From the NCBI GenBank assembly GCA_035999765.1, contig CP108521.1, forward strand, positions 4,588,001 through 4,652,000: a stretch of 64,000 bases of DNA, read 5' to 3'. The notes below the pieces were generated by a model that did no database searches, was not told the origin of the DNA, and worked only from the letters and a program-made list of their open reading frames with translations. This DNA is from Streptomyces sp. NBC_01231. GTDB taxonomy: Bacteria; Actinomycetota; Actinomycetes; Streptomycetales; Streptomycetaceae. Position numbers and translations under genes: made by a program. This document shows positions 12,187-63,406 of this stretch, in pieces; the stretch's first letter is position 1, and every line of letters begins with the position of its first letter.

Positions 12187-12201
12187 CTGACTGACCGTCA
12201 G
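12187..12201. promoter_or_regulatory. CTGAC-N5-GTCAG box 1 (fadD side)
   Basis: CTGAC-TGACC-GTCAG, perfect arms, 24 bases upstream of the FadD start. One of eleven such sites in the window. Confidence 0.75.
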
Positions 12202-12213
12202 ATTAGCGGTAGC

Positions 12214-12228
12214 CTGACGACCTGTCAG
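12214..12228. promoter_or_regulatory. CTGAC-N5-GTCAG box 2 (thiolase side)
   Basis: CTGAC-GACCT-GTCAG, perfect arms, 33 bases upstream of the thiolase-like start at 12261. Centre-to-centre distance to box 1 is 27 bases. Confidence 0.75.
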
Positions 12229-12260
12229 CTCGCTCGTCCGTCTGCGGAGGTGTGCGTACC

Positions 12261-13418
12261 GTGCCCGGAGGCCCAGGACTGAAAGACGCCACCGCCATCG
12301 TCGGCATCGGGCAGACGCCCTTCGCCAAACACCTCCCCGAGGACGAGCGGACCCTCGCCTGCCGTGCGGTCCTCGCCGCCCTCGACGACGCCGGGATCGC
12401 CCCCGGCGAGGTCGACGCCCTCGCCTCCTACACCATGGAGGAGACGGACGAGGTGGAGCTGGCGAAGGCCGTCGGCTTCGGGGACCTGACCTACTTCAGC
12501 AAGGTCGGATACGGGGGCGGCGGCTCCTGCGCCACCGTCACCCACCTCGCCTCCGCCATCGCCTCCGGGCAGGCCACGGTGGGCGTCGCGTGGCGGTCGC
12601 GGAAGCGGGGCAGCGGGCCGCGCCCCTGGACCAACACCACCGTCCAGCTCCCCACCCCCGCCCAGTGGACCCGGCCCTTCGGTCTGCTCCGGCCCGTCGA
12701 CGAGATAGCCGTGCTGGCCCGCCGCTACATGCACGAGTACGGCGTGACCCGCGACCACCTCTTCAACGTCGCCCTCGCCTGCCGCAACCGCGCCAACCAG
12801 AACCCCGCCGCCGTGATGTACGAGCGCCCCCTGACCCGCGAGATGTACATGTCGTCCCGGTGGATCAGCGAGCCCCTGTGCCTGTACGACAACTGCCTGG
12901 AGACGGACGGCGCGTTGGCGTGCGTGGTGGTGAGCAGCGAGCGGGCCCGGGACTGCCGCCGCACCCCCGTGTACGTCCACTCCGCCGCCCAGGGCCTGCC
13001 CGCCCAGCACCACGGCATGGTCAACTACTGGAACGACGACCCGCTCACCGGTCCGGCCTGGACCGCCGCCCGGCACCTGTGGAAACACGCCGACTTCACC
13101 CCACAGGACGTGGACGTCGCCCAGATCTACGACGCGTTCACACCCCTGGTCCCCCTCTCCCTGGAGGGCTACGGGTTCTGCGGCCGGGGAGAGGGCGGGG
13201 CGTTCACCGAGCAGGGCGCCCTGGAGAGCGGCGGACGGCTGCCCCTCAACACCGGCGGCGGCGGGCTCAGCGAGGCCTACGTGCATGGCTTCAACCTCAT
13301 CAACGAGGGCGTGAAGCAGCTGCGCGGGACGAGTACGGCACAGCTGCCCAGAGCCTCGACCTGCCTGGTCACCGCCGGCGAGGGCGTCCCCACGTCCGCC
13401 CTTCTCCTGAGGACATGA
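12261..13418 (+). CDS. thiolase-like/lipid-transfer protein (Ltp2/SCP-x N-domain type)
   Basis: About 385 residues of the non-classical thiolase fold. Features are AIVGIGQTPFAKH at the N-terminus, GGGGSCATVTHLASAIASG around the position of the thiolase nucleophile, and IYDAFTPLVPLSLEGYGFCGRGEGGAF in two segments near residue 300, the signature of SCP-x/Ltp proteins. Ltp2-type members pair with an OB-fold DUF35 protein and catalyse retro-aldol cleavage of side-chain CoA thioesters; a DUF35 gene follows directly. GTG 12261 was chosen (GGAGG ten bases upstream) over GTG 12252, which is too close to it. Whether it is an aldolase, thiolase or acyl carrier is open. Confidence 0.85.
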   Translation: MPGGPGLKDATAIVGIGQTPFAKHLPEDERTLACRAVLAALDDAGIAPGEVDALASYTMEETDEVELAKAVGFGDLTYFSKVGYGGGGSCATVTHLASAIASGQATVGVAWRSRKRGSGPRPWTNTTVQLPTPAQWTRPFGLLRPVDEIAVLARRYMHEYGVTRDHLFNVALACRNRANQNPAAVMYERPLTREMYMSSRWISEPLCLYDNCLETDGALACVVVSSERARDCRRTPVYVHSAAQGLPAQHHGMVNYWNDDPLTGPAWTAARHLWKHADFTPQDVDVAQIYDAFTPLVPLSLEGYGFCGRGEGGAFTEQGALESGGRLPLNTGGGGLSEAYVHGFNLINEGVKQLRGTSTAQLPRASTCLVTAGEGVPTSALLLRT

Positions 13419-13473
13419 GGGCGCGAGGGCACGACGACCCGAAGACCCGGGACCCCGAGGAGTTGACCCCGTC

Positions 13474-13893
13474 ATGCTGACCCCCGTCACCGACACCGAC
13501 GGCGCCCCGTTCTGGGAGTACGCCGCCCAGGGTGAGCTGCGCGTCCAGGCCTGCGCCGACTGCGGTGAGCTCCGCTTCCCGCCCCGGCCGTGCTGCCCGC
13601 ACTGCCAGTCCTTCGCGAGCGAGTGGCGCCGGATGTCCGGGCAGGGCCGCGTCTGGTCGTACAGCGTTCCGCACCCGCCGCTCCTTCCGGAGTACGCGGC
13701 GCGGGCGCCGTACAACGTCGTGGTCGTCGAACTCACCGACGCGCCACGCATCCGGCTGGTCGGGAACCTGGTCGGCGCGGCCGGGGATCCTCTCGACTCC
13801 CTTGATCCGCAGGGGGTTCGCATCGGCCAACGGGTGCGGGTCGCCTTCGACCGGGCGACCGGGCTTCCCCAATGGGTCCTGGAGCGGCCGTGA
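13474..13893 (+). CDS. Zn-ribbon OB-fold protein (DUF35)
   Basis: A 139-residue protein with an N-terminal helix, a rubredoxin-like zinc ribbon (CADCGELRFPPRPCCPHC, four Cys near residues 27-45) and an OB fold beginning WSYSVPHPP. DUF35 proteins bind thiolase-like partners and, in the ChsH2/Ltp2 system, present acyl-CoA to the aldolase. It follows the thiolase-like gene at 55 bases and overlaps the hydratase start by GTGA, so all three are probably one operon. Confidence 0.88.
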   Translation: MLTPVTDTDGAPFWEYAAQGELRVQACADCGELRFPPRPCCPHCQSFASEWRRMSGQGRVWSYSVPHPPLLPEYAARAPYNVVVVELTDAPRIRLVGNLVGAAGDPLDSLDPQGVRIGQRVRVAFDRATGLPQWVLERP

Positions 13894-14660
13894 ACGTCCA
13901 GGTCAGTCCCGACAAGGACACCGGCGTCGCGGTCGTCACCCTCGACCGGCCCGAGCGGCTCAACGCCATCGACCTCGCCATGGTGGGCGAACTCCGCGAC
14001 GTCTGGCGGGAGTTGCGGTTCGACGACGCGGTGCGGGCCGTGGTGCTCACGGGCCGCGGGGAGCGCGCGTTCTGCACCGGGATCGACCGGGACGCGGTCG
14101 TGCCGCAGCCGGGCTCCCCCTACATGGCGGACGATCCGCTGCTCCGGGTCGGGCCCAAGGCGAACGACCTGTGGAAGCCCGTCGTCGCGGCCGTGCGGGG
14201 CATGGCCTGCGGCGGGGCCTTCTATCTGCTCGGCGAGAGCGACTTCCTCGTCGCGGACACCACGGCCACCTTCTTCGACCCGCACACCACCTACGGCATG
14301 GTCAGCGCGTACGAGGCGGTCCTGATGGCCCAGATGATGCCGCACGGGGAAGCCGCCCGGACGGCGCTCATGGGGACGGCCGAGCGGATGTCGGCGCGAC
14401 GGGCCCACGAGGTCGGGCTGGTCACCGAACTCACCGAGCCTGGCCAGGCGTTGGCAGCCGCAACCGCCGCCGCCGCGGTCATCGCCGGGTATCCGACCGA
14501 GGGCGTCCAGGGCACCGTGCGCGCCCTGTGGGCCGCCAAGGAGGCCTCGCTGGCGCAGGGGTACGCCCAGGCTCCGCATCTGGTGGCGCTCGGGAACCTG
14601 CCGGGCGAACGGCAGGCCGGGCTGTTCCGGGCACGGCAGCGCGAGTTCAGGTTGCGATAG
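13890..14660 (+). CDS. enoyl-CoA hydratase/isomerase family protein
   Basis: About 256 residues of crotonase fold. AVVTLDRPERLNAID starts the domain, GRGERAFCTGIDRDA forms the CoA-adenine loop, and AAVRGMACGGAFYLL supplies the oxyanion hole. The usual first catalytic Glu appears replaced (FFDPHTTYGMVSAYEA), so hydratase activity is not certain; C-C hydrolase or isomerase roles are possible. GTG 13890 was preferred over ATG 13872 because it follows GGAGCGG and gives a GTGA overlap with the upstream stop. Confidence 0.85.
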   Translation: MNVQVSPDKDTGVAVVTLDRPERLNAIDLAMVGELRDVWRELRFDDAVRAVVLTGRGERAFCTGIDRDAVVPQPGSPYMADDPLLRVGPKANDLWKPVVAAVRGMACGGAFYLLGESDFLVADTTATFFDPHTTYGMVSAYEAVLMAQMMPHGEAARTALMGTAERMSARRAHEVGLVTELTEPGQALAAATAAAAVIAGYPTEGVQGTVRALWAAKEASLAQGYAQAPHLVALGNLPGERQAGLFRARQREFRLR

Positions 14661-14697
14661 CAATATACGTGTACCGCACAGGCGTATGCTCGCGGGC

Positions 14698-15663
14698 ATG
14701 GTTGAACATCGCGTGATCGACGTGAACGGCATCCGTCTGCACATCGCGGAGGAGGGCACGGGACCGCTCGTCGTGCTGCTGCACGGCTTCCCCGAGTCCT
14801 GGCACTCCTGGCGCCACCAGTTCGGCCCGCTGGCCGCGGCCGGGTTCCGGGTGGTCGCACCGGACCAGCGCGGTTACGGCGGCAGCGATCACCCCGAGGA
14901 CGTGAACGCGTACAGCATCCTCCACCTCGTCGGCGACGTGGTCGGGCTGATCCACGCGCTGGGCGAGGAGCGGGCGTTCGTCGTGGGCCACGACTGGGGT
15001 GCGCCGGTGGCCTGGCACACCGCGCTGCTGCGGCCGGACGTGGTGCGCGGGGTGGCGGGGCTGAGCGTGCCGCCGCCGTTCCGTGGGGAGCGGCCGCCGC
15101 TGCGGGCCATGCAGGAACGGTTCGGCGGCCGCTTTTACTGGAACTATTTCAACCTGCCGGGCGTCGCCGACGCCGAGTTCGCGCTGGACACCCGCGCGAG
15201 TCTGCGGCGGCTGCTGTTCTCCGCCTCCGGTGACGCCCCGGACGCCGGCGGCTGCGAGGGTGCCCTGGTCGACCTGGAGCGGGGCTGGCTCGCGGACATG
15301 ACCGACCCCGAGGTGCTGCCGGGCTGGCTCACCGAGGAGGACCTCGACGAGCTGACCGAGAGCTACGCGAAGGGCTTCACCGGCGCCCTGAACTGGTACC
15401 GCAACCTGGACCGCAACTGGGAACTGACCGCGGCCTGGCACGGCGTCGTCGTCAGCCCGCCCGCGCTGTACATGTACGGCGACCGCGACCTGGTCCCGGC
15501 CTTCCCGGGCACGCCCGAACTGATCGCCGGGCTGCCCGAGTTGATGCCGAACCTGCGCCGCGACCCGATCGTGCTGCCCGGCTGCGGTCACTGGACCCAG
15601 CAGGAGCGGCCGAACGAGGTGAACGAGGCCCTGGTCGACTTCCTCACCGGGCTCAGCGACTGA
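14698..15663 (+). CDS. epoxide hydrolase-like alpha/beta hydrolase
   Basis: A 321-residue alpha/beta hydrolase. HGFPES is the oxyanion-hole HGxP motif, GHDWGAPVAW holds the Asp nucleophile typical of epoxide hydrolases and haloalkane dehalogenases, and GCGHW near the C-terminus holds the catalytic His. Soluble epoxide hydrolases also use two cap-domain Tyr, consistent with Tyr residues near 135 and 225-240. It follows the catabolic operon by 37 bases and may belong to it, though it has no CTGAC-N5-GTCAG box. A hydrolase of unknown function is also known between afsK and afsS in S. coelicolor, so it may belong to the ancestral locus. Confidence 0.85.
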   Translation: MVEHRVIDVNGIRLHIAEEGTGPLVVLLHGFPESWHSWRHQFGPLAAAGFRVVAPDQRGYGGSDHPEDVNAYSILHLVGDVVGLIHALGEERAFVVGHDWGAPVAWHTALLRPDVVRGVAGLSVPPPFRGERPPLRAMQERFGGRFYWNYFNLPGVADAEFALDTRASLRRLLFSASGDAPDAGGCEGALVDLERGWLADMTDPEVLPGWLTEEDLDELTESYAKGFTGALNWYRNLDRNWELTAAWHGVVVSPPALYMYGDRDLVPAFPGTPELIAGLPELMPNLRRDPIVLPGCGHWTQQERPNEVNEALVDFLTGLSD

Positions 15664-15667
15664 CCGC

Positions 15668-19832: not shown

Positions 19833-19847
19833 CTGACGTCATGACAG
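19833..19847. promoter_or_regulatory. degenerate CTGAC-N5-GTCAG site over the TetR start
   Basis: CTGAC-GTCAT-GACAG matches nine of ten arm bases of the shared box and overlaps the ATG at 19841. It might be an autoregulatory site. A chance match is possible because TGACGTCA is itself palindromic. Confidence 0.35.
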
Positions 19848-20488
19848 GACAAGTGCGTACCGTCGACGGCCGCGTGGCCGGCCGGCGTGGGCAGGCGACC
19901 CGACAGAAGCTGCTCGACTGCCTCAGCGAGATGCTCAGCTCCTCCCCGTACCGGGACGTCAAAGTCATCGATGTCGCCCGGAAGGCGGGCACTTCGCCCG
20001 CGACCTTCTACCAGTACTTCCCGGACGTCGAAGGCGCCGTCCTGGAGATCGCCGAGCAAATGGCCGCCGAGGGCGCCGAGTTGACCGAACTGGTCGCCGG
20101 CCGCTCCTGGGTCGGCAAGGCCGGCTGGCAGACCGCGCAGGAACTCGTCGACGGGTTCCTGGAGTTCTGGCGCCGCAACGACGCGATCCTCAGAGTCGTC
20201 GATCTCGGTGCCGCCGAGGGCGACAAACGGTTCTACAAACTCCGAATGAAGATCCTCAACTCGGTCAACAACTCCCTCTCGGACGCGGTCGCGGAACTAC
20301 AGGCCAAGGGCAGAGTCGACAAGGACGTGAACCCGGCAGCCGTCGCCGGTTCGCTCGTCGCGATGCTCGCGGCCGTCGCCTCGCACCAGAAGGGCTTCCA
20401 GACCTGGGGTGTGAAGCAGGCCGAACTCAAGCCGAACCTGGCGCTGCTGGTGCACCTGGGCGTGACCGGGAAGAAGCCCACGAAGTAA
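19841..20488 (+). CDS. TetR-family regulator, candidate controller of the dispersed catabolic genes
   Basis: 215 residues. The N-terminal helix-turn-helix is VIDVARKAGTSPATFYQYFPDVEGAV, close to the TetR consensus, preceded by RGQATRQKLLDCLSEML. The C-terminal domain (about 80-200) carries WRRNDAILRVVDLGAAEGDKRFYKLR. Regulators of this group often respond to acyl-CoA thioesters. It is the only TetR gene close to the catabolic blocks, lying between two of them, and a near-match to their shared box covers its own start. That it binds those boxes is inference. Confidence 0.88.
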   Translation: MTGQVRTVDGRVAGRRGQATRQKLLDCLSEMLSSSPYRDVKVIDVARKAGTSPATFYQYFPDVEGAVLEIAEQMAAEGAELTELVAGRSWVGKAGWQTAQELVDGFLEFWRRNDAILRVVDLGAAEGDKRFYKLRMKILNSVNNSLSDAVAELQAKGRVDKDVNPAAVAGSLVAMLAAVASHQKGFQTWGVKQAELKPNLALLVHLGVTGKKPTK

Positions 20489-21171: not shown

Positions 21172-22452
21172 TCAACCCGGCTGGTGTTGATCGTGGAAGA
21201 CCTGTCGGGTCGCTGACCCGCAGGCTGCGTGAGCCAGGAATCCCCCTGCTTCAGCTGGGGGAGGATTCAACTCCCGTTCCGTGAAGAGCCGGGCCGCCTC
21301 GGCGGCGTGCGCCCGCAGCCGGTGCGCCGGTCCGAACAGCAGCTCGTCGCCCGAGGCACGCTTGAAGTACAGGTGCGCCTCGTGCTCCCACGTGAAACCG
21401 ATGCCGCCGTGCAGCTGGATCCCCTCGGCGGCGGCGCCACGCAGGGCCTCCAGGGCCTGCGCTAGGGCCAGCCCCCCGACCCGTTCCCCCTGGGCAGCGG
21501 CCCAGGCCGCGTAGTACGCCGCCGAGCGCGCCGCCTGCACCTGGACGTACACATCGGCGAGGCGGTGCTGCACCGCCTGGAAGGAGCCGACCGCCCGCCC
21601 GAACTGCTCGCGCTGCCGGACGTACTCCACGGTCAGCCCGAGCATCTGATCGGCGGCCCCGACGGCCTCGCAGGCGATCAGGGAGGCGGCCGTGTCACCG
21701 GTCCCGGCGAGTGCGGCCGGCACGGCGGCCGCGTCGACGCTCTCGTTGCCCAGCAACTCGGCCTCCACGTCGCGCAGTTGCAGCCGTGCCTGCGGCCGGG
21801 TCGCGTCCAGAGCGGTCTGCCGCACGCGGACGACTCCGTCGGCGTCCCCGGACACGAGGAAGAGCAGGGTCCGCGACCGGGCGAACCCGCCGGCGTGGGC
21901 GGCGACCAGCAGCAGCCCCGCGTGGTGCCCGTCGAGGACCTGGTCGACCTGTCCGTACAGGCGCCACCCCGTGCCGGCCTGCCGGGCCTGCACCCCTCCC
22001 GCGCGCCCGCCGCCGGCCCACCCGCCGCCGTTGTCGCCGGTCAGCGCGAGGGCGGTGGCGAGGCAGGTGCCGGGTACCGCGAGCGCGGCGGTGAGCGTGC
22101 CGGAGGCGATGCGCGGCAGCAGCACGGTGCGCTGGGCCTCGGTGCCCAGGGCCAGCAGCAGGGGTGCGGCGAGCCCGGCGGTGGCGAGCAGCGGGGAGGG
22201 GGCGAGGAAGCGGCCGGTCTCCTCGCAGGCGAGGGCGAGGTCGGTCACCGAGCCGCCGACACCGCCGTAGGTGTCGGGGAGCGCGAGCCCGGGCAGGCCG
22301 AGCTGTTCGGCGAGGGCGCTCCACAGGGCGGGATCGTGTCCGGCCGGGGTGTCGACGGCGGCCCGTACCTCCGCCGGACCGCAGCGATCCCGCAGCAGTG
22401 CGCGCAGGGTGCGGCGGATCTCGTCCTGCTCGGCGGTGAAGTCGGTGTCCAT
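21172..22452 (-). CDS. acyl-CoA dehydrogenase (small-subunit type), 3' end altered
   Basis: About 426 residues. It has FTAEQDEIRRTLRALL, then DTYGGVGGSVTDLALACEETGRFL, a shortened beta domain with Gly/Ala-rich stretches, VRQREQFGRAVGSFQAVQHRLAD and IQLHGGIGFTWEHEAHLYFKRA. Proteins of this subgroup usually form heteromers with a second acyl-CoA dehydrogenase and oxidise ring or side-chain CoA esters. The last 30-odd residues, beginning LNPPPAEAGGF, are read through an IS605-like right-end hairpin and are foreign to the family. Box 3 lies 76 bases upstream of ATG 22452. Confidence 0.88.
   Translation of the reverse strand: MDTDFTAEQDEIRRTLRALLRDRCGPAEVRAAVDTPAGHDPALWSALAEQLGLPGLALPDTYGGVGGSVTDLALACEETGRFLAPSPLLATAGLAAPLLLALGTEAQRTVLLPRIASGTLTAALAVPGTCLATALALTGDNGGGWAGGGRAGGVQARQAGTGWRLYGQVDQVLDGHHAGLLLVAAHAGGFARSRTLLFLVSGDADGVVRVRQTALDATRPQARLQLRDVEAELLGNESVDAAAVPAALAGTGDTAASLIACEAVGAADQMLGLTVEYVRQREQFGRAVGSFQAVQHRLADVYVQVQAARSAAYYAAWAAAQGERVGGLALAQALEALRGAAAEGIQLHGGIGFTWEHEAHLYFKRASGDELLFGPAHRLRAHAAEAARLFTERELNPPPAEAGGFLAHAACGSATRQVFHDQHQPG
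21230..21270 (+). mobile_element. relic of an IS200/IS605 (TnpB-type) right end
   Basis: An imperfect hairpin, GAATC-CCCC (from 21238) pairing with GGGG-gag-GATTC (to 21268), followed by AA. This sequence pattern, with the same 3-base bulge, is typical of the right end of IS605-family elements in actinomycetes. No tnpB frame survives to its left, so only the end remains, fused into the 3' end of the acyl-CoA dehydrogenase gene. Confidence 0.5.
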
Positions 22453-22619: not shown

Positions 22620-23804
22620 ATGACGCGCAGAATCATGACGCGCTCCCGGAAGGTCGCGATCGTCGGCGTCTCCCTCTCCGACTGCGGCCGCGTGGACGAC
22701 GCGACCCCGTACGCCCTGCACGCCCAGGCCGCCCGCCGCGCCCTCGCCGACGCGGGACTGGACCGCTCGGTGGTCGACGGCTTCGCCTCGGCGGGCACCG
22801 GCGTCCTGGCGCCCGTCGAGGTCGCCGAGTACCTGGGCCTGCGCCCCACCTGGGTCGACTCCACCTCCGTCGGCGGCTCGACCTGGGAGGTGATGGCGGG
22901 CCATGCGGCGGACGCGATCGCCGCCGGCCACGCGAACGCGGTCCTGCTGGCCTACGGCTCGACCGCCCGTGCGGACATCAGGGCGGGCCGGCGGACCGGC
23001 AACCTCTCCTTCGGCGCGCGCGGCCCGCTCCAGTTCGAGGTGCCCTACGGCCACACCCTGATCGCCAAGTACGCCATGGCGGCCCGCCGCCACATGCTCG
23101 AACACGGCACCACGGTCGAACAGTTGGCGGAGGTCGCGGTACAGGCGCGGGCCAACGCCGCTCTGAACCCGGAGGCGATGTTCCGCGCACCGATCACGGT
23201 GGACGACGTCCTGTCCGGCCCGATGATCGCGGACCCCTTCACCAAGCTGCACTGCTGTCTGCGCTCCGACGGCGGGGCCGCGGTGCTGCTTGCGGCCGAG
23301 GAGTACGTGGCCGACTGCCGCACCGCACCGGTGTGGGTCCTCGGCACCGGAGAGCACATCTCGCACTCCGCGATGTCGGAGTGGCCCGACTTCACCGTGT
23401 CCCCGGCGGCGGTGAGCGGACGGCTCGCCTTCGAGAGGGCCGGGGTGCGGCCGACGGAGATCGACTTCGCGGAGATCTACGACGCGTTCACCTACATGAC
23501 CCTGGTGACGCTGGAGGATCTCGGCTTCTGCCCCAAGGGCGAGGGCGGGGCCTTCGTGGAGAAGGGCCGGCTGCGGGTCGAGGGCGGGGAGCTGCCGGTG
23601 AACACGGACGGAGGCGGACTGTCGGCCCAACACCCGGGAATGCGGGGGCTGTTCCTGCTGGTGGAGGCGGTGCGGCAGCTGCGGGGAGAGGCGGGTGATC
23701 GTCAAGTGCGGGGTATGGGTGGGCAGTTGCCGCGGTTGGGGGTGGCCTCGGGGACGGGTGGCTGGTTCTGTTCGTCGGGGACGGTCGTGCTGGGAAGAAG
23801 CTGA
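22620..23804 (+). CDS. thiolase-like/lipid-transfer protein (second copy)
   Basis: 394 residues of the SCP-x/Ltp thiolase-like family. It shows VAIVGVSLSDCGRVDD, VDSTSVGGSTWEVMAGHAADAI around the nucleophile region (the usual Cys is replaced by Ser or Thr), and IYDAFTYMTLVTLEDLGF followed by CPKGEGGAF. Loss of the thiolase Cys fits an aldolase or structural role rather than thiolysis. It is related to the protein at 12261 but clearly divergent. The box directly precedes the ATG; ATG 22635 is an alternative start. Its OB-fold partner may be the DUF35 gene at 27.9-28.5 kb. Confidence 0.85.
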   Translation: MTRRIMTRSRKVAIVGVSLSDCGRVDDATPYALHAQAARRALADAGLDRSVVDGFASAGTGVLAPVEVAEYLGLRPTWVDSTSVGGSTWEVMAGHAADAIAAGHANAVLLAYGSTARADIRAGRRTGNLSFGARGPLQFEVPYGHTLIAKYAMAARRHMLEHGTTVEQLAEVAVQARANAALNPEAMFRAPITVDDVLSGPMIADPFTKLHCCLRSDGGAAVLLAAEEYVADCRTAPVWVLGTGEHISHSAMSEWPDFTVSPAAVSGRLAFERAGVRPTEIDFAEIYDAFTYMTLVTLEDLGFCPKGEGGAFVEKGRLRVEGGELPVNTDGGGLSAQHPGMRGLFLLVEAVRQLRGEAGDRQVRGMGGQLPRLGVASGTGGWFCSSGTVVLGRS

Positions 23805-44016: not shown

Positions 44017-44025
44017 GTCTGTAAT

Positions 44026-47179: not shown

Positions 47180-47809
47180 ATGAGGGACATGATGGGACAA
47201 GCAGGGATGGCCGAAGCCGCCGTCCGCTACCTCAGGTCGGCCGGGACCGCGCCGCTCGCGCGACCCGTCGAGGCGCTCCCGCGACCGGAGTTGCGGTGCG
47301 TCCGGGAGAACGAACGAGCGCCTGTCGACCAGACCGAGTTCCGTCGCGTACTGGGCACCTTCGCCACGGGAGTCACCGTCGTCACAGCACCCCCCGCCGG
47401 CCCCGGCACCTCCCCTGACAGCTCTCCCGCCGGCTTCGCCTGCCAGTCCTTCTCCTCCCTCTCCCTCGACCCGCCCCTGATCGCCTTCATGGTCGGCCGC
47501 ACATCGACGACGTGGCCGCGCATCGCCCGTGCCGGGGTCTTCTGCGTGAACGTCCTCAGTGCCGGACAGGGCGAGCTGTGCCGCGCGTTCGCGGTGCGCG
47601 GCGCGGACAAGTTCGCGGGCGTCGAGCACACCCCGGCCCCCGTCTCCGGATCTCCCCGGCTCACCGGCGCCCTCGCGTGGATCGACTGCACGATCCACGC
47701 GGTGCACACCGGGGGCGACCACCTCATCGTGGTGGGCCGGGTCGACGCGCTGGGCACGGGCGACGAGGACGCGGCCCCTCTGCTGTTCCACAAGGGGCGA
47801 TTTCTCTGA
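47180..47809 (+). CDS. flavin reductase family protein (HsaB/NmoB-like)
   Basis: 209 residues. The FMN-binding split barrel begins FRRVLGTFATGVTVVTA, then GFACQSFSSLSLDPPLIAFMVGRTSTTWPRIARAGVFCVNVLS, as in two-component monooxygenase reductases, and it ends GGDHLIVVGRVDALGTG. It should supply reduced flavin to an oxygenase, but no such oxygenase component is in the window. The N-terminal 45 residues are outside the conserved domain, so a later start is possible. Regulated by box 8. Confidence 0.88.
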   Translation: MRDMMGQAGMAEAAVRYLRSAGTAPLARPVEALPRPELRCVRENERAPVDQTEFRRVLGTFATGVTVVTAPPAGPGTSPDSSPAGFACQSFSSLSLDPPLIAFMVGRTSTTWPRIARAGVFCVNVLSAGQGELCRAFAVRGADKFAGVEHTPAPVSGSPRLTGALAWIDCTIHAVHTGGDHLIVVGRVDALGTGDEDAAPLLFHKGRFL

Positions 47810-54456: not shown

Positions 54457-55506
54457 TCAGAACGTCAGCACCCCGCGTGCCACCCGCCCCGCCTCCGCGT
54501 CCGCCACCGCCTTCTCGAAGTCCTCGACCGGATACGTCCTGGTCACCAGCTCGTCGAGGAGCAGCCGGTCCTCCCGGTACAGCTCGGCGTACAGGGCGAT
54601 GTCCCGCTGCGGACGGGAGGATCCGTAGCGGCAGCCCAGGATCGACTTGTCCAGGAACATCGACGAGACGAGGAAGGACGCCTCAGCCGTGGCCGGCGGG
54701 ACGCCGAGCAGGATCGCCTGCCCGTGCCGGTCCAGGGAGTCGATCGCCGCCCGGATCAACTCGACCCGGCCGACGCACTCGAAGGCGTGGTCCGCGCCCG
54801 TCGGCAGCACGTCCCGCACGTTGTCCATGGAGGTCAGGAAGTGTGTCGCGCCGAACCGCCGGGCCACCTCCTCCTTCGCCGGGTTCGCGTCCACGGCGAC
54901 GATCCGCAGCGCGCCCGCGATCCGCGCCCCCTGCAGGACGTTCAGCCCGATCCCGCCCGTGCCGATCACCAGCACACTGTCCCCGCGGTCCACCTTCGCC
55001 CGGTTGAGCACGGCGCCGACGCCGGTCAGCACCCCGCAGCCGATGAGCGCGGCGGACGGCAACGGAATCTCCTCGGGGATCCGGACCGCCTGCACGGCCT
55101 TCACGACGGTCCGTTCCGCGAAGGCCGAGTTGGCCGCGAACTGGAACACCGGCCGCCCGTCCCGCGCGAACGGCTGCCCCGGCCGCCCGATCGACTGCCG
55201 GCACATCGTCGGCCGTCCCCGGTCGCACTGCGCGCACGTACCGCAGTTGGCGAGCGTGGACAGGGCCACGTGATCGCCGGGGCGCACATGCGTGACACCG
55301 GCGCCCACCGCCGCCACCACGCCCGCCCCCTCATGGCCGAGCACCACAGGAACGGGGAACGGTATGGTCCCGTCCACCACGGACAGGTCGCTGTGGCACA
55401 GCCCCGCCGCCGAGACGGCCACCTGCACCTCGCCCGGTCCCGGATCCCGTACGACGAGATCGTCCACGACCTCGATCCGCTTGCCGTCGAACACCACGCC
55501 TCGCAT
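54457..55506 (-). CDS. zinc-dependent alcohol dehydrogenase
   Basis: 349 residues of the MDR superfamily. LCHSDLSVVDGTIPFPVPVVLGHEGAGVV gives catalytic Zn ligands Cys and His-Glu. Structural Zn Cys are in CGTCAQCDRGRPTMC, and VLVIGTGGIGLNVLQGARIAG binds NAD(P). The pattern is close to class III-like and mycothiol/NDMA-dependent dehydrogenases. ATG 55506 shares one base with the stop of the acyl-CoA dehydrogenase. It probably oxidises an alcohol intermediate of the pathway. Confidence 0.9.
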   Translation of the reverse strand: MRGVVFDGKRIEVVDDLVVRDPGPGEVQVAVSAAGLCHSDLSVVDGTIPFPVPVVLGHEGAGVVAAVGAGVTHVRPGDHVALSTLANCGTCAQCDRGRPTMCRQSIGRPGQPFARDGRPVFQFAANSAFAERTVVKAVQAVRIPEEIPLPSAALIGCGVLTGVGAVLNRAKVDRGDSVLVIGTGGIGLNVLQGARIAGALRIVAVDANPAKEEVARRFGATHFLTSMDNVRDVLPTGADHAFECVGRVELIRAAIDSLDRHGQAILLGVPPATAEASFLVSSMFLDKSILGCRYGSSRPQRDIALYAELYREDRLLLDELVTRTYPVEDFEKAVADAEAGRVARGVLTF

Positions 55507-56669
55507 CACACGGCCCCCTGTCGGCCCTTGGGTTCCCTCGGCAGGCCGAGCACCCGCTCGGCGATGATCGTGCGCTGGATCTGGTCGGAGCCGCCGTAGA
55601 TCGTGTCGGCCCGGGAGAAGAGGAACAGGTGCTGCGACACGTCGAGTTCGTACGGCGCCGCGGCCGACCACTCCACCGGGCCCACGGCCGCCGCCGCGCC
55701 CCGCACCCGCATCGCCAGCTCCCCCAGCCGCTGATGCCAGCCGGCCCACAGCAGCTTGGCCACGCTCGACGCACCCGCGTCGGCCGAACCCCCCAGGGTG
55801 CGCAGGGCGTTCCAGCGCATCACACGCAACTCGGCCCACTGACGCACCAACCGGTCCCGTACGACGGGATCGTGCACCGCGCCGGTGGCCACCGCCGTCT
55901 CCACGACCTTGCCCAACTCCTGGGCGAAACCGATCTGTTGGGCGAGCGTGGACACTCCGCGTTCGAAGCCGAGCAGACCCATCGCGACCCGCCAGCCGCC
56001 GCCCTCCGCGCCGACGACATGCTCCACGCGCGCGCGTGCCCCGTCGAAGAACACCTCGTTGAACTCGCTCGTTCCGGTCAGCTGACGGATCGGCCGGACC
56101 TCGACGCGGCCCGGCTGGTCCATGGGCACGAGCAGGAACGTCAGCCCGTGGTGGCGCCGGGAGCCGGGCTCGGTACGGGCGAGCACGAAGCACCAGTCCG
56201 CCTCGTGCGCGAGCGAGGTCCAGATCTTCTGGCCGGTGATCCGGTAGTGCGTCCCGTCCGGTTCGCGTACGGCCGCGGTGCGCACACCGGCCAGGTCCGA
56301 GCCGGCGTCGGGTTCGCTGTATCCCTGGCACCAGAGTTCCTCGCCGGCGGCGATCGGGGGCAGGAAGCGGGCCTTCTGTTCCTCGGTGCCGTGGGCGAGG
56401 AGGGTGGGGGCGAGGAGGTTCTCGCCGATGTGTCCGGAGCGTGGCGGCGCGGGCGACCGGGCGTACTCCTCGGCCCAGGCGACCTGTTGGGTGAGGGTGG
56501 CGGCGCGGTTGCCGTAACCGTCCTGGGACCAGCCGAGGCCGATCCAGCCGGCTTTGCCGAGGGTGCGTTCCCAGGTACGGCGGTCCTGCGTGCCGTCGGC
56601 GTGGGCGGCGAGCCATCCCCTCGCCTCGGCGCGGAAGGCATCGTCCTGCGAGGTGAATGCGAAGTCCAT
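55506..56669 (-). CDS. acyl-CoA dehydrogenase (large-subunit type)
   Basis: 387 residues, full-length family member. WCQGYSEPDAGSDLAGVRTAA and YRITGQKIWTSLAHEADWC form the FAD-binding beta domain; the C-terminus has IYGGSDQIQRTIIAERVLGLPREPKG. It resembles FadE subunits that act in heteromers on steroid-type or branched CoA esters, such as with the small-subunit type at 21172 or 60017. ATG 56669 follows GGAAGG. Confidence 0.92.
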   Translation of the reverse strand: MDFAFTSQDDAFRAEARGWLAAHADGTQDRRTWERTLGKAGWIGLGWSQDGYGNRAATLTQQVAWAEEYARSPAPPRSGHIGENLLAPTLLAHGTEEQKARFLPPIAAGEELWCQGYSEPDAGSDLAGVRTAAVREPDGTHYRITGQKIWTSLAHEADWCFVLARTEPGSRRHHGLTFLLVPMDQPGRVEVRPIRQLTGTSEFNEVFFDGARARVEHVVGAEGGGWRVAMGLLGFERGVSTLAQQIGFAQELGKVVETAVATGAVHDPVVRDRLVRQWAELRVMRWNALRTLGGSADAGASSVAKLLWAGWHQRLGELAMRVRGAAAAVGPVEWSAAAPYELDVSQHLFLFSRADTIYGGSDQIQRTIIAERVLGLPREPKGRQGAV

Positions 56670-56791
56670 GGGTGCGCCTTCCTGGAGGGTGGCCGGAGCC
56701 TGTGGGGTGCCGGGTGCGGTGGGGTGCCGGGTGGCGGTGGGGTCGGGTCACCCCCTCGGCACAGGGCGGCCAACCGCGAATGGCTGTAGCC

Positions 56792-57703
56792 CTACGCGTT
56801 CGGCCGGCCCCCCTCCCGCGCCGCCCGTTCCATCCCCGCCACCCGCTCCAGCAGCGGCATCGGGTCCATGCCCACCGTCCCCGGCAGGAAGTCCGCGATC
56901 TTCTCCGGTGTCCAGGCGCCGTCCGCGTACGCCGCCCGCAGCTCTCTCGGCTGGGCCCAGACCGCGATCTTGGGGCCGGCGATCGTGTACACCTGGCCCG
57001 TGATCCCCTGTTCCCACGCCTTCGCCGACAGCAGGTAGACCACCATCGCGGCCACGTCCTCCGGCTCGCCGATCTCGGTGAGTTCCATGGGGACGTTCGC
57101 CGACATCCGGGTTCGGGCCACCGGGGCCACCGCGTTGGCGGTCACCCCGTACTTGTGCAGCCCCAGGGCCGCGCTGCGGACGAGCGAGATGATCCCGCCC
57201 TTCGCCGCGCTGTAGTTGGCCTGGGACACCGAGCCCTGGTGGTTTCCGCTGGTGAAGCCGATCAGCGTGCCGGACCTCTGCTGCCGCATCACCGCCGATG
57301 CCGCCCGGAACACGGTGAACGTGCCCTTGAGGTGGGTCGCCACGACGGGGTCCCACTCCTCCTCGGCCATGTTGAACAGCATCCGCTCGCGCAGGATCCC
57401 GGCGACACACACGACCCCGTCGAGCCGTCCGTACGAGGCGAGCGCCACGTCGACCACCCGCTGACCGCCGGCCATCGTGGAGATGTCGTCGGCCACGGCG
57501 ACCGCTTCGCCGCCCGCCGCCTCGATCTCCTTGACCACGGACTGGGCGACCTCGCTCGTCGGCGAGGCGCCGTCCATGGCAACGCCGTGATCGTTGACGA
57601 CGACCCGGGCGCCCTCGGCCGCCGCGGCCAGCGCCACCGCCCGCCCGATCCCCCGTCCGGCGCCTGTCACGGCGACCACCTTGCCTGCCAAGAAGTTCCC
57701 CAC
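56792..57703 (-). CDS. SDR-family 3-hydroxyacyl-CoA dehydrogenase-like
   Basis: 303 residues. VVAVTGAGRGIGRAVALAAAAEGARVVVNDHG is the NAD loop of the peroxisomal multifunctional-enzyme-like SDRs. VVCVAGILRERMLFNM, GFTSGNHQGSVSQANYSAAKGG (YxxxK) and an extended C-terminus follow. The VNDHG pattern suggests acyl-CoA substrates. GTG 57703 has GAAGGGG upstream and box 9 lies 21 bases beyond. Probably co-transcribed with the dehydrogenases below it. Confidence 0.9.
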   Translation of the reverse strand: MGNFLAGKVVAVTGAGRGIGRAVALAAAAEGARVVVNDHGVAMDGASPTSEVAQSVVKEIEAAGGEAVAVADDISTMAGGQRVVDVALASYGRLDGVVCVAGILRERMLFNMAEEEWDPVVATHLKGTFTVFRAASAVMRQQRSGTLIGFTSGNHQGSVSQANYSAAKGGIISLVRSAALGLHKYGVTANAVAPVARTRMSANVPMELTEIGEPEDVAAMVVYLLSAKAWEQGITGQVYTIAGPKIAVWAQPRELRAAYADGAWTPEKIADFLPGTVGMDPMPLLERVAGMERAAREGGRPNA

Positions 57704-57785: not shown

Positions 57786-58721
57786 ATGTCACAGCCCGCG
57801 CTCCATCCCGCGTTCCACGACATCGCCAAGCGCGTGAACAACTGGGGCCGTTGGGGGGCGGACGACGAGATCGGCACCCTCAACCTGATCACCGACGAGG
57901 TGGCACGCCAGGCGGCGACCGAGGTCCGCACGGGCCGCCGCGTCCCTCTCGCGCTCCCCCTGCGACAGGACGGGGTGCAGACCGGACTGATCCCCGGGCG
58001 GGTCAATCCCCTGCACGCCATGGTGCAGATCAACCAGGAGATCTTCGGCCCGGGCACGGTGGCGTGCAGCGACGACGCCGTGACCATGGGACTCCAGGCG
58101 GCCACCCACTGGGACGCACTCACCCATGTCTCACACTCGGGCCGGCTCTACAACGGCCGCCCGGCCGACACCATCACCCCGCACGGCGGCGCCGAGTTCA
58201 GCGGCATCGACAAGGCACGGCACATCGTCTCGCGCGGGGTACTGCTCGACGTGGCCCGGGCGCACGGCAGGGACCGTCTCGACGGCTCGTACGCCGTCAC
58301 CCCCGAGGACCTCGACGCCGCCGAGGAACTCGCCGGTACGCGGGTGCGGGCCGGTGACATCGTGCTCGTACGGACCGGGCAGGTGCAGGTGTACCTGGCG
58401 GGCGACAAGGAGGCGTACGGCTATCCGTCACCGGGCCTGTCGATCCGTACACCGGAGTGGTTCCACGCACGCGATGTCGCCGCGGTCGCGAACGACACCC
58501 TCACCTTCGAGGTGTTTCCGCCCGAGATCGAGGATCTGTGGCTGCCCGTACACGCGCTCGACCTGGTGGAGATGGGGATGCTTCAGGGGCAGAACTGGAA
58601 TCTCGAAGAGTTGTCCACAGCCTGTGGACAAGAGGGCCGGTACGCATTCCTGCTGTCGGCGATGCCCGAACCCTTCGTCGGCGCGACGGGAACGCCGGTC
58701 GCGCCCGTCGCCATCCTCTGA
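57786..58721 (+). CDS. cyclase family protein (kynurenine-formamidase-like hydrolase)
   Basis: 311 residues. The metal-binding stretch ATHWDALTHVSHSGRLYNG corresponds to the family HxGTHxDxPxH motif, and a later IDKARHIVSRGVLLDVARAHG is characteristic. Members hydrolyse cyclic amides, lactones or formamides using zinc or manganese. ATG 57786 follows GGGGAGGA. In this setting it may open a lactone or ring intermediate. Confidence 0.88.
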   Translation: MSQPALHPAFHDIAKRVNNWGRWGADDEIGTLNLITDEVARQAATEVRTGRRVPLALPLRQDGVQTGLIPGRVNPLHAMVQINQEIFGPGTVACSDDAVTMGLQAATHWDALTHVSHSGRLYNGRPADTITPHGGAEFSGIDKARHIVSRGVLLDVARAHGRDRLDGSYAVTPEDLDAAEELAGTRVRAGDIVLVRTGQVQVYLAGDKEAYGYPSPGLSIRTPEWFHARDVAAVANDTLTFEVFPPEIEDLWLPVHALDLVEMGMLQGQNWNLEELSTACGQEGRYAFLLSAMPEPFVGATGTPVAPVAIL

Positions 58722-58729
58722 GGACCGTC

Positions 58730-59771: not shown

Positions 59772-60020
59772 ATGCGGCATACTGTGCGACGCTCGTCTCC
59801 AAGGGTCGAACAAACAGGGGTAACACCGGCATGGTTCGTGCTCGGGGCCACTCGCATTTCACCCAAGGTACCGGAGTGGGTGATCGACTCCGGGATCCAC
59901 GAGTCACACGTAGGACACAACCCGATATCAACGCTCCGTGATTCCGGTATGCCACGATCCGCGACATCCGCCCCGGGCGCTCCGGTGATGTCCCAGCCCA
60001 GCGGCGTTCGCGGCCTCTAG
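59772..60020 (+). CDS. small hypothetical protein, 82 residues
   Basis: ATG 59772 has an excellent GGAAGGAG six bases upstream, and a TTGACC lies at 59713, which argue for expression. The product (MRHTVRRSSPRVEQTG, then TPAWFVLGATRISPKVPEWVIDSGIHES) is not recognised. Its position, divergent from an anti-sigma ATPase gene, is where a WhiJ-type regulator is often found, so it may be a decayed regulator. It overlaps the opposing dehydrogenase by four bases. Confidence 0.4.
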   Translation: MRHTVRRSSPRVEQTGVTPAWFVLGATRISPKVPEWVIDSGIHESHVGHNPISTLRDSGMPRSATSAPGAPVMSQPSGVRGL

Positions 60021-60904
60021 TCCACGAGTTCCGCGGCGAGGCATTCCTCACTCTCCGTGACTCCTCCGCCACGTTCTGCCCGCACCCAGGCCCGCTTGAG
60101 ATGCAGGTGCACCTCGCTCTCCCAGGTGAACCCCATGCCGCCGTGCACCTGAAGACAGTCCCGCGTGCTACGCAGCGCGGCCTCGTCGGCCAGCAGCCGG
60201 GCCGCCGCGATGTCGAGGGCGTCGGCGGTGACGGCGGCGGCGTACACGGCCGCGCGGGCCGTCTCCGCCCGCACCAGCATGTCGGCGCAGAGATGCTTGA
60301 TCGCCTGGAAGGCGCCGATCGGCTGCCCGAACTGCTCACGGGTCCGCGCGTGTTGTACGGCCAGCTCGCACGCACGGGTGGCCGTACCGAGCTGCTCGGC
60401 GGCCGTGAGGAGGACGCCGACGGGGTCACAGGGCCACGTCTCCGCGCCGGTCCAGCGGTGCAGCGGCGTCAACGGATCCACCGACCGCAGCGGCACGGCC
60501 TCTTCCGGTCGCGGCAGCGGGGTCCCTCCCCCGCGTACGACGTCCGCCTCCGCCAGCCACTCCACCAGGCCGCCGTCGACATCCGCCACGACCGCCTCGC
60601 CGGCCGCCGCCCCCGGCACGGTGCCCGCCGCGAGGTGCGTGGCGATCAGCGGCCCGGGCAGCAGGACGCGCCCCGCCTCCTCGAACACCAACACCGCCTC
60701 GGGAAGCCCCAGTCCCACCCCGCCGTCCGCCTCCGGCAGCCGCAGCGCGAAGAACCCGGCCTCCCCCAACTCCCGCCACAGCGCACGGTCGAGCCCCGGA
60801 CGCTCCACGGCGGCGCGCAGGGCCTCGGCGTTGAAGCGCCGCGCCAGCAGCTCCCGTACGCCCGCCCGCAAGGCTCGCTGGTCCTCGGACAGATGAAAAC
60901 GCAC
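60017..60904 (-). CDS. short acyl-CoA dehydrogenase subunit
   Basis: 295 residues, about 80 shorter than ordinary family members. The N-terminal helical domain (FHLSEDQRALRAGVRELL) and C-terminal domain (HARTREQFGQPIGAFQAIKHLCADM, then VHGGMGFTWESEVHLHLKRAW) are present, while the central beta domain is reduced. Such short subunits form heteromers with a full-length partner; the gene just upstream encodes one. GTG 60904 starts one base after its stop. Confidence 0.88.
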   Translation of the reverse strand: MRFHLSEDQRALRAGVRELLARRFNAEALRAAVERPGLDRALWRELGEAGFFALRLPEADGGVGLGLPEAVLVFEEAGRVLLPGPLIATHLAAGTVPGAAAGEAVVADVDGGLVEWLAEADVVRGGGTPLPRPEEAVPLRSVDPLTPLHRWTGAETWPCDPVGVLLTAAEQLGTATRACELAVQHARTREQFGQPIGAFQAIKHLCADMLVRAETARAAVYAAAVTADALDIAAARLLADEAALRSTRDCLQVHGGMGFTWESEVHLHLKRAWVRAERGGGVTESEECLAAELVD

Positions 60905-60905
60905 G

Positions 60906-62060
60906 TCAGCGCCCCTTCGGCAGGCCCAGGATCCGCTCGGCCACGATGTTGTGCTGGATCTGCGAGGTACCGGCCGCGATGGTGTACGACAGCGAGGAGA
61001 GGCGGTCGAGCACCCAGGGCCGGTCGAGATCGAGTGCCGCGTCGCCCAGGACGTCGGCGGCTGCGTCGTACAGCTCCTGACGCGCGTGTGAGTACCTCAG
61101 TTTGAAGACCGAACCCCCAACGCCCGGCACCCGGCCGGACGCCTGAGCCTCGCTCACGTTCCACTGGGTCAGCCGCCACAGTGCGCGGAACTCGGCGTTC
61201 AGCCGCCCGAGGCGCCGGCGCAGCACCGGATCGTCCCAGCGGCCGGTCCGCCGCGCCTCCCGGGCGAGTTCACCGAGGACGCGCCGGCAGGCCACCACCT
61301 CGCCGACGAACGCCGTGCCGCGCTCGAAGGCCAGGGTCACCATGGTCACCCGCCAGCCGTCGTTCTCGTCGCCGACCCGGTTGGCGACCGGGACGCGCAC
61401 CTCGTCGAGGAACACCTCGGCGAACTCGGCCGACCCGGCGAGGGTCCGCAGGGGCCGTACGGTGACTCCGGGCGTGTCCATGGGCAGGGCGAGCCAGGTG
61501 ATACCCCGGTGTTTCGTGGCGGCCGGATCGGTTCGCACCAACAGCTCGCACCAGTCGGCCACTTCGGCGTGCGAGGTCCAGATCTTGGACCCGTTCACCA
61601 CGTAGTCGTCGCCGTCCCGCCGCGCGCGCGTGCGCAGTGCCGCGAGGTCGGACCCGGCGTCCGGTTCGCTGAATCCCTGGCACCACACCTCCTCGCCGCG
61701 GAGGATCGGCGGCAGCCAGCGCGCCCGCTGCCCGGCCGTCCCCTCGGCGGCGATGGTGGGCCCCGCGTGCAGCAGTCCGACGAAGCCGGCCCCCACGTAG
61801 GGCGCGCCCGCCCTCTCCGTCTCCTCCAGGAAGATCAGGTGCTGGGTGGGGGTGGCTCCCCGCCCGCCCGCGTCGGCGGGCCAGTGCAGGCCCGCGTACC
61901 CGGCGTCGTACAGCATCCGCTGCCAGCCGAGGTCATGGGCGCGCCGGCCCGGCCAGTCGTCCGGGGACGGCTTCGGCGGCAGCGTGGGCAGCACTATCGC
62001 CAGCCACTCCCGCAGGCGGGCCCGGAACTCCTGCTCCTCGGGTGTGTCGGTGAGGTCCAC
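60906..62060 (-). CDS. acyl-CoA dehydrogenase, full-length partner subunit
   Basis: 384 residues. WCQGFSEPDAGSDLAALRTRA and YVVNGSKIWTSHAEVADWC bind FAD and substrate, and the end has IAAGTSQIQHNIVAERILGLPKGR. GTG 62060 shares one base with the stop of the amidohydrolase gene, so the three genes are translated together. It likely forms an alpha2-beta2 dehydrogenase with the short subunit, as in the ChsE-type steroid enzymes. Confidence 0.92.
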   Translation of the reverse strand: MDLTDTPEEQEFRARLREWLAIVLPTLPPKPSPDDWPGRRAHDLGWQRMLYDAGYAGLHWPADAGGRGATPTQHLIFLEETERAGAPYVGAGFVGLLHAGPTIAAEGTAGQRARWLPPILRGEEVWCQGFSEPDAGSDLAALRTRARRDGDDYVVNGSKIWTSHAEVADWCELLVRTDPAATKHRGITWLALPMDTPGVTVRPLRTLAGSAEFAEVFLDEVRVPVANRVGDENDGWRVTMVTLAFERGTAFVGEVVACRRVLGELAREARRTGRWDDPVLRRRLGRLNAEFRALWRLTQWNVSEAQASGRVPGVGGSVFKLRYSHARQELYDAAADVLGDAALDLDRPWVLDRLSSLSYTIAAGTSQIQHNIVAERILGLPKGR

Positions 62061-63253
62061 TAGCGGTCCAGGTCGAGGCCCAGCATGCGGATGGCGTTGC
62101 CCCGCATCAGCTTGTACACCGTCTCGTCGTCTAGGCCCTTCACATGGTCGAGGGCGACCTCCTTGGTGTGCGGGAAGGTCGAGTCGACGTGCGGGTAGTC
62201 GGTCTCGAAGGTCGCGTTGTCCCGGCCGACGACGTCCAGCGAGGCGACCCCGTGCTTGTCGCGGAAGAAGCAGCAGAACATCTGCCGGTAGTAGTACGTC
62301 GACGGCGGCTCCGGGATCGTGCCGCGGACGCCGCCCCACGCGCGGTGCTCCTCCCAGACGTCGTCGGCGCGTTCCAGGGCGTACGGGATCCAGCCCATCT
62401 GCCCCTCGGAGTAGGCGAGTCCGAGCCGGGGGAACCGCACCAGGACGCCGCTGAAGAGGAAGTCCATCATCGAGGCCATGGCGTTGTTGAAGCTGAGCGC
62501 GGCCTGCACGGCGGGCGGCGCGTCGGGGGAGGCGGCCGGCATCTGGGAGCTGCTGCCGATGTGCATGTTGACGACCGTCCCGGTGTCCTGGCAGACGGCG
62601 AAGAACGGGTCCCAGTAGCCGGAGTGGATGGACGGCAGGCCCAGGTGGGTGGGTATCTCGGAGAAGGTCACGGCCCGCACCCCGCGGGCCGCGTTGCGCC
62701 AGATCTCCTCGACCGCGAGCTCGACGTCCCACAGCGGGATCAGGCACAGCGGGATCAGCCGGCCCCCGCTGTCCCCGCACCACTCCTCGACCATCCAGTC
62801 GTTGTAGGCGCGCACACAGGCCAGCGCGACCTCCTTGTCGTGCGCCTCGGCGAAGGTCTGCCCGCAGAAGCGGGGGAAGGAGGGGAAGCAGAGGGACGCC
62901 TCGACATGGTTGAGGTCCATGTCCGCGAGGCGCGCGACGGGATCCCAGCAGCCCCGCCGCATCTCCTGGCGGGTGATCCCCTCCAGGGTCATCTCGTCCC
63001 GGTCGAAGCCGACGGCGGCGATGTTGCGCTTGTACGGGAACTTCAGGTCCTCGTAGATCCACCAGTCGGTCGGCTGGCCGTCCGGGTCCATCGTGATCTG
63101 GTACTTGCCGCCGACGTAGGCGAGTTCCCCGATGCCGGCGGTGAGGGCCTTGGGGCCGCGGTCCCGGTACTTCTGCGGCAGCCAGGTCTCGAAGAGGTGC
63201 GCGGGTTCGATGACATGGTCGTCGACGCTGATGATGCGGGGCAGTTCGGTCAT
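62060..63253 (-). CDS. amidohydrolase-2 family metal-dependent hydrolase/decarboxylase
   Basis: 397 residues. ISVDDHVIEPAHLFETWLP is the N-terminal metal-binding D-x-H, VVNMHIGSSSQM carries a barrel His, and FETDYPHVDSTFPHTK holds the C-terminal Asp and His. The group includes ACMSD-like decarboxylases and hydrolases of aromatic or cyclic acids. ATG 63253 was chosen; box 10 lies 47 bases upstream. It leads the operon with the heteromeric dehydrogenase. Confidence 0.9.
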   Translation of the reverse strand: MTELPRIISVDDHVIEPAHLFETWLPQKYRDRGPKALTAGIGELAYVGGKYQITMDPDGQPTDWWIYEDLKFPYKRNIAAVGFDRDEMTLEGITRQEMRRGCWDPVARLADMDLNHVEASLCFPSFPRFCGQTFAEAHDKEVALACVRAYNDWMVEEWCGDSGGRLIPLCLIPLWDVELAVEEIWRNAARGVRAVTFSEIPTHLGLPSIHSGYWDPFFAVCQDTGTVVNMHIGSSSQMPAASPDAPPAVQAALSFNNAMASMMDFLFSGVLVRFPRLGLAYSEGQMGWIPYALERADDVWEEHRAWGGVRGTIPEPPSTYYYRQMFCCFFRDKHGVASLDVVGRDNATFETDYPHVDSTFPHTKEVALDHVKGLDDETVYKLMRGNAIRMLGLDLDR

Positions 63254-63300
63254 GGGGGTCCCCTCCGCCTGACACACACAGGTACCTGACACACAGTTAA

Positions 63301-63315
63301 CTGACGGATCGTCAG
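63301..63315. promoter_or_regulatory. CTGAC-N5-GTCAG box 10
   Basis: CTGAC-GGATC-GTCAG, perfect arms. A weaker CTGAC-ACACA-GTTAA adjoins it at 63286-63300 on the side of the amidohydrolase gene. Confidence 0.75.
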
Positions 63316-63391
63316 ATTCGTGACGTGCCCAGCAGGCTAGTCGCGCACCCCTGGACCGACAAGGCGCCGAGCCCTACGCTCTGCCCACCAT

Positions 63392-63406
63392 CTGACTACC
63401 CGTCAG
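63392..63406. promoter_or_regulatory. CTGAC-N5-GTCAG box 11
   Basis: CTGAC-TACCC-GTCAG, perfect arms, 17 bases upstream of GTG 63424. Confidence 0.75.

Follow-up and report, generated by a model that had tools for sequence, protein, structure and literature searches.

The window analysed here is a stretch of 64,000 nucleotides (64 kb) of Streptomyces sp. NBC_01231, corresponding to C1:4588001-4652000 of its single-contig, 11.34-Mb genome (G000). It carries a 15-base palindrome, CTGAC-N5-GTCAG, repeatedly in front of genes that are mostly of coenzyme A (CoA)-dependent catabolic type, and among these genes it encodes a TetR-family regulator with a PF19352 domain.

Palindromes and the genes they flank

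An earlier note on this DNA had listed eleven copies of the palindrome, and all eleven exist. Eight have perfect arms (12187, 12214, 28926, 44002, 44026, 47160, 63301 and 63392) and three carry a single mismatch (22528, 22601 and 57725), so that the note's division into nine perfect and two mismatched copies was off by one. Chance expectation was taken from 100 dinucleotide shuffles of the window, in which perfect copies average 0.11 and never reach eight. When up to two mismatches are allowed, 38 copies are observed against 41.9 expected, which is no excess over chance, and therefore only the near-perfect class is meaningful within the window. The spacer varies between sites while the arms are fixed. 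Flanking A-T is a genuine tendency among the sites, so the extended consensus ATCTGAC-N5-GTCAGAT holds as a tendency but not as an invariant rule. All eleven sites lie within 80 bp of at least one gene start, as had been claimed, judged by our own simple gene calls with estimated starts. Pairs occur at several promoters (12187/12214, 22528/22601, 44002/44026 and 63301/63392). The putative operators are given below, with scores from a matrix trained on 15 sites of a 101-kb stretch defined further on.

12187..12228: putative operator pair 12187, 12214, between a FadD3-family CoA ligase (-) and an Ltp2-like operon (+); 30.9 and 17.0 bits
22528..22615: putative operator pair 22528, 22601, between an IpdE2-like acyl-CoA dehydrogenase (-) and a thiolase-like gene (+); 28.8 and 31.5 bits
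28926..28940: putative operator between a DoxX-like/DUF35 pair (-) and a secreted hydrolase (+); 36.7 bits, arms and flanks both perfect
44002..44040: putative operator pair 44002, 44026, before an ATP-grasp CoA ligase; 22.3 and 32.7 bits
47160..47174: putative operator before a flavin reductase gene; perfect arms, 27.6 bits
57725..57739: putative operator between a short-chain dehydrogenase/reductase (SDR) operon (-) and a PF04199 cyclase (+); 28.3 bits
63301..63406: putative operator pair 63301, 63392, between an amidohydrolase operon (-) and a CoA ligase (+); 36.5 and 23.3 bits

A weak site of 15.2 bits (63286-63300) abuts the strong site at 63301 in a tandem arrangement. Sites are likewise present in S. 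scabiei (L262) at the junction equivalent to 22528/22601, and two genomes of another family, G038 and G042, have sites at the same SDR operon/PF04199 cyclase junction as 57725. The flanked genes of the window are as follows.

10559..12163 (-): FadD3-family acyl-CoA ligase (NCBIfam PRK07656, 788.9 bits, cut-off 657)
12261..15663 (+): Ltp2-like aldolase, ChsH2-type DUF35 partner, enoyl-CoA hydratase and epoxide-hydrolase-like protein
21172..22452 (-): acyl-CoA dehydrogenase, IpdE2-like (under the IpdE2 model cut-off)
22635..23804 (+): thiolase/lipid-transfer-like protein
27879..28921 (-): DoxX-like membrane protein and ChsH2-type DUF35 protein
29117..30757 (+): secreted hydrolase, BD-FAE type
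44076..47119 (+): ATP-grasp acyl-CoA ligase and enoyl-CoA hydratase
47207..47809 (+): flavin reductase, HsaB-like (192 bits, under the cut-off of 230)
54457..57703 (-): SDR, acyl-CoA dehydrogenase and zinc alcohol dehydrogenase
57786..58721 (+): PF04199 putative cyclase
60017..63253 (-): amidohydrolase and acyl-CoA dehydrogenase pair, IpdE1/IpdE2-like
63424..64000 (+), running beyond the window to 64926: AMP-binding acyl-CoA ligase

The earlier note had assigned every gene concerned to acyl-CoA or ring degradation, which is mostly true but fails for the DoxX-like membrane protein and the secreted hydrolase around 28926. The labels IpdE2, PimC and HsaB denote likenesses, because the matches fall under the cut-offs of those models. 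The Ltp2-like aldolase matches PDB 6ok1, which we take to be Ltp2. The protein at 14686-15663 is epoxide-hydrolase-like, and its identification as HsaD was rejected.

Over the whole genome there are 46 perfect copies of CTGAC-N5-GTCAG against 8 of a reversed control pattern, and 55 copies of ATCTGAC-N5-GTCAGAT with up to two mismatches against 2 for the control. With at most one mismatch the longer consensus occurs 17 times, and 12 of these copies fall between 4550054 and 4651408, a stretch of 101 kb. Random placement of 17 sites, repeated in 20000 sets, never put more than five in such a stretch, although this test favours the extended consensus, since the consensus was derived from these very sites. 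For the plain core, 12 of the 46 perfect sites lie within the same stretch. It begins 38 kb left of the window, where four further perfect sites are found at -37944, -6592, -5678 and -858 (window coordinates). The eleven sites that had been taken as the regulon are real, but the set is larger than the window, with 15 sites in the 101-kb stretch and a few dispersed elsewhere.

The neighbours of the sites left of the window are two SDRs, an amidohydrolase, a luciferase-like enzyme and two proteins that match no Pfam family, one of them secreted and the other read by us as EthD-like. Two adjoining secreted proteins, likewise with no Pfam match, lie downstream of the -5678 site (L017:14482-16078). 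A protein of 576 residues in this region was considered as a 3-ketosteroid dehydrogenase and rejected, being of D-aminoacylase type. The 101-kb stretch also holds genes read from domains and sequence as afsR, afsS and afsK, and an orthologue of a CofGH-type F420 gene (71% to that of G038, with the family assigned via the G042 protein).

Site strength separates the perfect copies further, and bears on whether the motif is common inside coding regions or at unrelated genes, the outcome that the earlier note had set against a common regulon. Eighteen of the 46 score at least 20 bits, and none of these lies within a called gene (the one at 6362313 overlaps a start), versus 13 of the 28 weaker perfect sites (<20 bits) inside genes. 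Sixteen of the 18 are at most 70 bp from a start or overlap one. Eleven of the strong sites are inside the 101-kb stretch and seven elsewhere, four of the latter with fitting neighbours:

5090909: MaoC-DUF35/Ltp-like operon
3000493 and 7170898: luciferase-like genes
10177483: CoA ligase/enoyl-CoA hydratase pair

The TGTCC spacer of the site at 5090909 (L054:2909) recurs in five other genomes (G004, G009, G011, G012 and G024).

The PF19352 TetR as candidate regulator

No regulator had been named for these sites in the earlier note. A candidate lies inside the window:

19841..20488 (+): TetR-family regulator PF19352, ATG at 19841, alternative GTG at 19853
19833..19847 (+): degenerate site-like element that spans the TetR gene's probable ATG; 11.8 bits, partly coding

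Read from 19841, the protein has a TetR_N helix-turn-helix (26.8 bits, Pfam cut-off 24.0) and a C-terminal PF19352 (TetR_C_38) domain of 244.2 bits that spans residues 81-215 and the profile from 1 to 135 of 135. Its fold is the all-helical TetR fold, and the recognition region GTSPATFYQYF is almost invariant in 14 TetRs.

Sites and regulator co-occur across genomes. Among 61 relatives, 51 have one TetR match each at E 1e-20, including all 37 genomes of the same genus, and the ten without a match contain 0 or 1 exact copies of CTGACN5GTCAGAT. We also drew 296 genomes across the class. The TetR was counted as present where its match reached E 1e-30, and five genomes whose matches fell short of this were placed among those without. 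In this draw at least six site matches are found in 31 of the 49 genomes with the TetR versus 1 of the 247 others. Among the genomes with the TetR that lie outside the own genus, 13 of 21 reach this number. Within family f16, the seven genomes that have the TetR carry 6-18 site matches and four without it carry 0-1.

The same genes keep the sites in other genomes. The Ltp2-like gene has a site above 20 bits within 200 bp upstream in all 30 loci examined (27 of the own genus and 3 of another family, from 40 matches listed), while 182 of 3000 random positions in the same loci reach even 15 bits. In G038 and G042, which belong to another family of the same order, the genes dispersed in Streptomyces are contiguous and together occupy about 43 kb. 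Most divergent promoters of this cluster carry sites, and the orthologous TetR gene is at its centre. Of the called genes of the G038 cluster, 23 match proteins of the 101-kb stretch, and for 16 the identity is at least 50%; the two amidohydrolases of the stretch are not among the matches in the G038/G042 cluster. A 203-residue gene product beside sites in G038 was considered as an autoregulated TetR and rejected as an isochorismatase-family protein. This contiguity is the strongest support for the separated blocks belonging together, and the earlier suggestion that one regulator ties them into one pathway gains from it.

The TetR lies within site-bearing clusters in four other lineages. In Actinomadura (L244, L255) its gene is followed by sites and by genes for an ATP-grasp ligase and an amidohydrolase, which are 66% and 74% identical to their window counterparts; sites precede each of the two genes. 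In Yinghuangia (L243) and in metagenome-assembled genomes (MAGs) of Frankiales (L197, L235) its neighbours are an SDR gene and echA20-ipdA-ipdB-ipdC, and the divergent promoter contains a site that scores 23-31 bits; IpdA and IpdB were identified here by PDB 6co6/6con and the hydratase by PRK07938. G086 has nine sites above 16 bits over 75 kb; an amidohydrolase and a cyclase there share 66% and 54% identity, respectively, with their Streptomyces counterparts.

The TetR encoded at 19841-20488 is the most likely candidate for the protein that binds the sites, judged from sequence. One competing explanation is that AfsR or another regional regulator reads them and that the TetR is a mere neighbour kept by synteny with afsK. 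In its favour, the site at -858 has the afsR-like gene on one side and an amidohydrolase gene on the other, G042 and G038 likewise have sites next to afsR-like genes, and own-genus genomes that have no exact sites still keep the TetR adjacent to afsK. We regard this as quite unlikely and set AfsR aside as the regulator, as the Yinghuangia, Actinomadura and Frankiales loci combine the TetR and the sites with no afsR-like gene among the called genes of a 10-20 kb stretch. Known AfsR targets, moreover, are direct repeats. It is extremely unlikely that the palindromes, though inverted repeats between genes, are RNA hairpins, terminators or remnants of repeat elements: they sit in divergent promoter regions, keep A/T-rich flanks, conserve their arms around a changing spacer and track the TetR gene across families.

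Several observations weigh against the TetR as the reader of the sites, or limit how far the assignment extends. Three of the seven strong outlying sites have no obviously fitting neighbours (a kinase with an unmatched protein, a glyoxalase-like gene and a peptidase). A MAG of family f16 (G200, 68% complete) has 11 site matches with no TetR detected. Conversely, eight of the 28 own-genus genomes of the draw that have the TetR have at most two exact matches, four of them none, and in families f6, f14, f20 and f24 it is accompanied by only 0-6; the TetR therefore persists after its sites are lost or acts on other targets. Of 30 sites sampled from two genomes of family f15, 14 are inside called genes. 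No strong site adjoins the TetR gene in the window. Finally, the genomes compared share ancestry, and p-values are indicative only.

Family f15 (G135, G063, G103, G119 and G085; L198, L199, L200 and L210) has a shorter PF19352-type relative and 26-171 CTGACN5GTCAGAT matches genome-wide. The many sites may reflect a global regulon or another role; a nucleoid-type placement was rejected, with no significant clumping in G063.

The element at the TetR gene start is of a different grade. A CTGAC-N5-GACAG sequence is present there in 55 of 56 own-genus loci, and the remaining one has a longer spacer. Upstream of the TetR gene in distant loci, 9 of 18 score at least 15 bits and 13 of 18 more than 10, compared with 43 of 286 other genes reaching 15 bits in the same site-rich loci. 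Autoregulation through this element is compatible with these data, which are only suggestive. The argument is weakened because in most lineages the element coincides with the start codon or the first codons. In the own genus, f3, Yinghuangia and Actinomadura (11-22 bits) the probable ATG lies inside it, and in f14 and in most f15 and f16 loci it falls within the first possible codons, while a clearly upstream element is seen only in a few loci such as G120, G135 and Parafrankia. With the probable ATG inside, the segment 19833-19865, tcggtaagCTGACGnCATGACAGgaca, hardly varies across 55 of the 56 own-genus loci, and no ribosome-binding site is evident in it. The TetR transcript is perhaps leaderless.

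Type of pathway and the separate ipd cluster

The genes flanked by the sites resemble steroid- or terpenoid-type ring and side-chain catabolism, where 'steroid' expresses a likeness. In 51 genomes of families f1 and f3 all 37 with the Ltp2-like gene also have IpdA, and 12 of the 14 without it lack IpdA. Genomes that have IpdA also have more sites in total (median 16 vs 5.5). Growth of a streptomycete on HIP (3aα-H-4α(3'-propanoate)-7aβ-methylhexahydro-1,5-indanedione) is mentioned in PMC5380842.

NBC_01231 itself has a complete-looking echA20-ipdABC cluster with a KstR2 orthologue (PDB 4w97, 5.8e-56) at about 2.640-2.652 Mb (L227:9971-21570). The 30 kb surrounding this cluster contain no CTGAC-type site of 12 bits or more. 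The divergent promoters of the cluster carry two palindromes of a different type, CCTAACAAACGTTTGG and CCAAACACTTGTTAGG, which are also found in G009; the KstR2 motif was not found there. KstR2 was rejected as the reader of the CTGAC sites, given this separate orthologue and its other-type palindromes. The TetR of the window has no KstR2 among its PDB sequence matches at E 0.01 and gives no meaningful alignment with the genome's own KstR2 orthologue. Neither KstR nor KstR2 is among the 50 matches listed in a fold look-up, a result that excludes nothing.

A proposed dispersed TetR regulon and its relation to known systems

We consider it likely that the sites are operators of one TetR repressor, the PF19352 protein encoded at 19841-20488, over a dispersed catabolic regulon. 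The TetR would bind the 19-bp palindrome ATCTGAC-N5-GTCAGAT over or just behind the promoters and block transcription. A pathway intermediate, possibly a CoA thioester by analogy with KstR2, would release it. The pathway may degrade a steroid- or terpenoid-type alicyclic compound, and the ring remnant would then enter the separate KstR2-linked ipd pathway of the same genome. One further possibility is that the PF19352 TetR activates transcription from the sites, or that a second TetR of like specificity also reads them. Activators occur within the TetR family, and the paired sites at several promoters speak for such a reading. It is nonetheless unlikely: strong sites lie near starts, some within 5-20 bp, a better fit to a block than to activation, and there is one close TetR per genome at E 1e-20, in a search that covered close TetRs.

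TetR-controlled catabolic regulons are a known kind. The KstR regulon (sterol side chain, rings A/B; PMC1995591, PMC5380842) is likewise a large TetR regulon of dispersed lipid-catabolic genes. KstR2 of mycobacteria and rhodococci, which acts in ring C/D steroid catabolism, is similarly a TetR over CoA-dependent ring-catabolic genes; its effector is HIP-CoA according to the same source (PMC5380842). The PF19352 TetR adjoins the same echA20-ipdABC genes in Yinghuangia and Frankiales, but it is unrelated to KstR2 beyond the fold and is not at ipdABC/echA20 in NBC_01231. Compared with EthR of Mycobacterium tuberculosis, it shows a similar fold, 18% identity over the structural match and a PDB sequence (phmmer) match covering only residues 12-74.

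Within Streptomyces, PMC3878966, the one paper found to name SCO4421, describes it as a TetR gene near afsK with expression in spore chains that is reduced in a whiA mutant, and detected no phenotype on its deletion. The window's TetR is similarly close to afsK and is probably the orthologue of SCO4421, an orthology assigned by position and not by sequence comparison. Unlike that description, which in the portion available gives no targets or motif, an operator set is proposed here. In S. avermitilis the orthologue is possibly SAV3818, a TetR reported to stimulate antibiotic production. The earlier note knew of no described Streptomyces repressor with this site, and our searches agree with it: open-access full text, from which subscription journals are mostly absent, gave, among the matches listed, no paper with the palindrome as an operator, and the text matches inspected were primers or cloning oligonucleotides. 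The operator and its regulator were not found in print in these searches.

A broader proposal is more tentative, its prospects falling slightly short of even. A ring-catabolic programme that is F420-linked and largely undescribed may be run, in several actinobacterial families, by one undescribed TetR subfamily with one operator code. The regulator would have traded targets between lineages, with the steroid ipd operon in Yinghuangia and Frankiales and, in Streptomyces, the separate aldolase/CoA-ligase/amidohydrolase/luciferase-like set, which occurs along with a KstR2-linked ipd operon. This would be a case of two unrelated TetR repressors holding the same ring-cleavage operon in different lineages.

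For Streptomyces, the sites provide a probable operator, regulon and pathway class for a TetR that is found in all same-genus relatives compared and for which the single paper found here describes no mutant phenotype. Poorly annotated CoA, luciferase-like and amidohydrolase genes around afsR/afsK become one testable pathway, linked to steroid-ring-type catabolism. If the broader proposal is true, the breakdown of a steroid- or terpenoid-like compound would be common to many Streptomyces, and would be controlled by a repressor that has so far been known only from its gene, active at sporulation time and located beside afsK.

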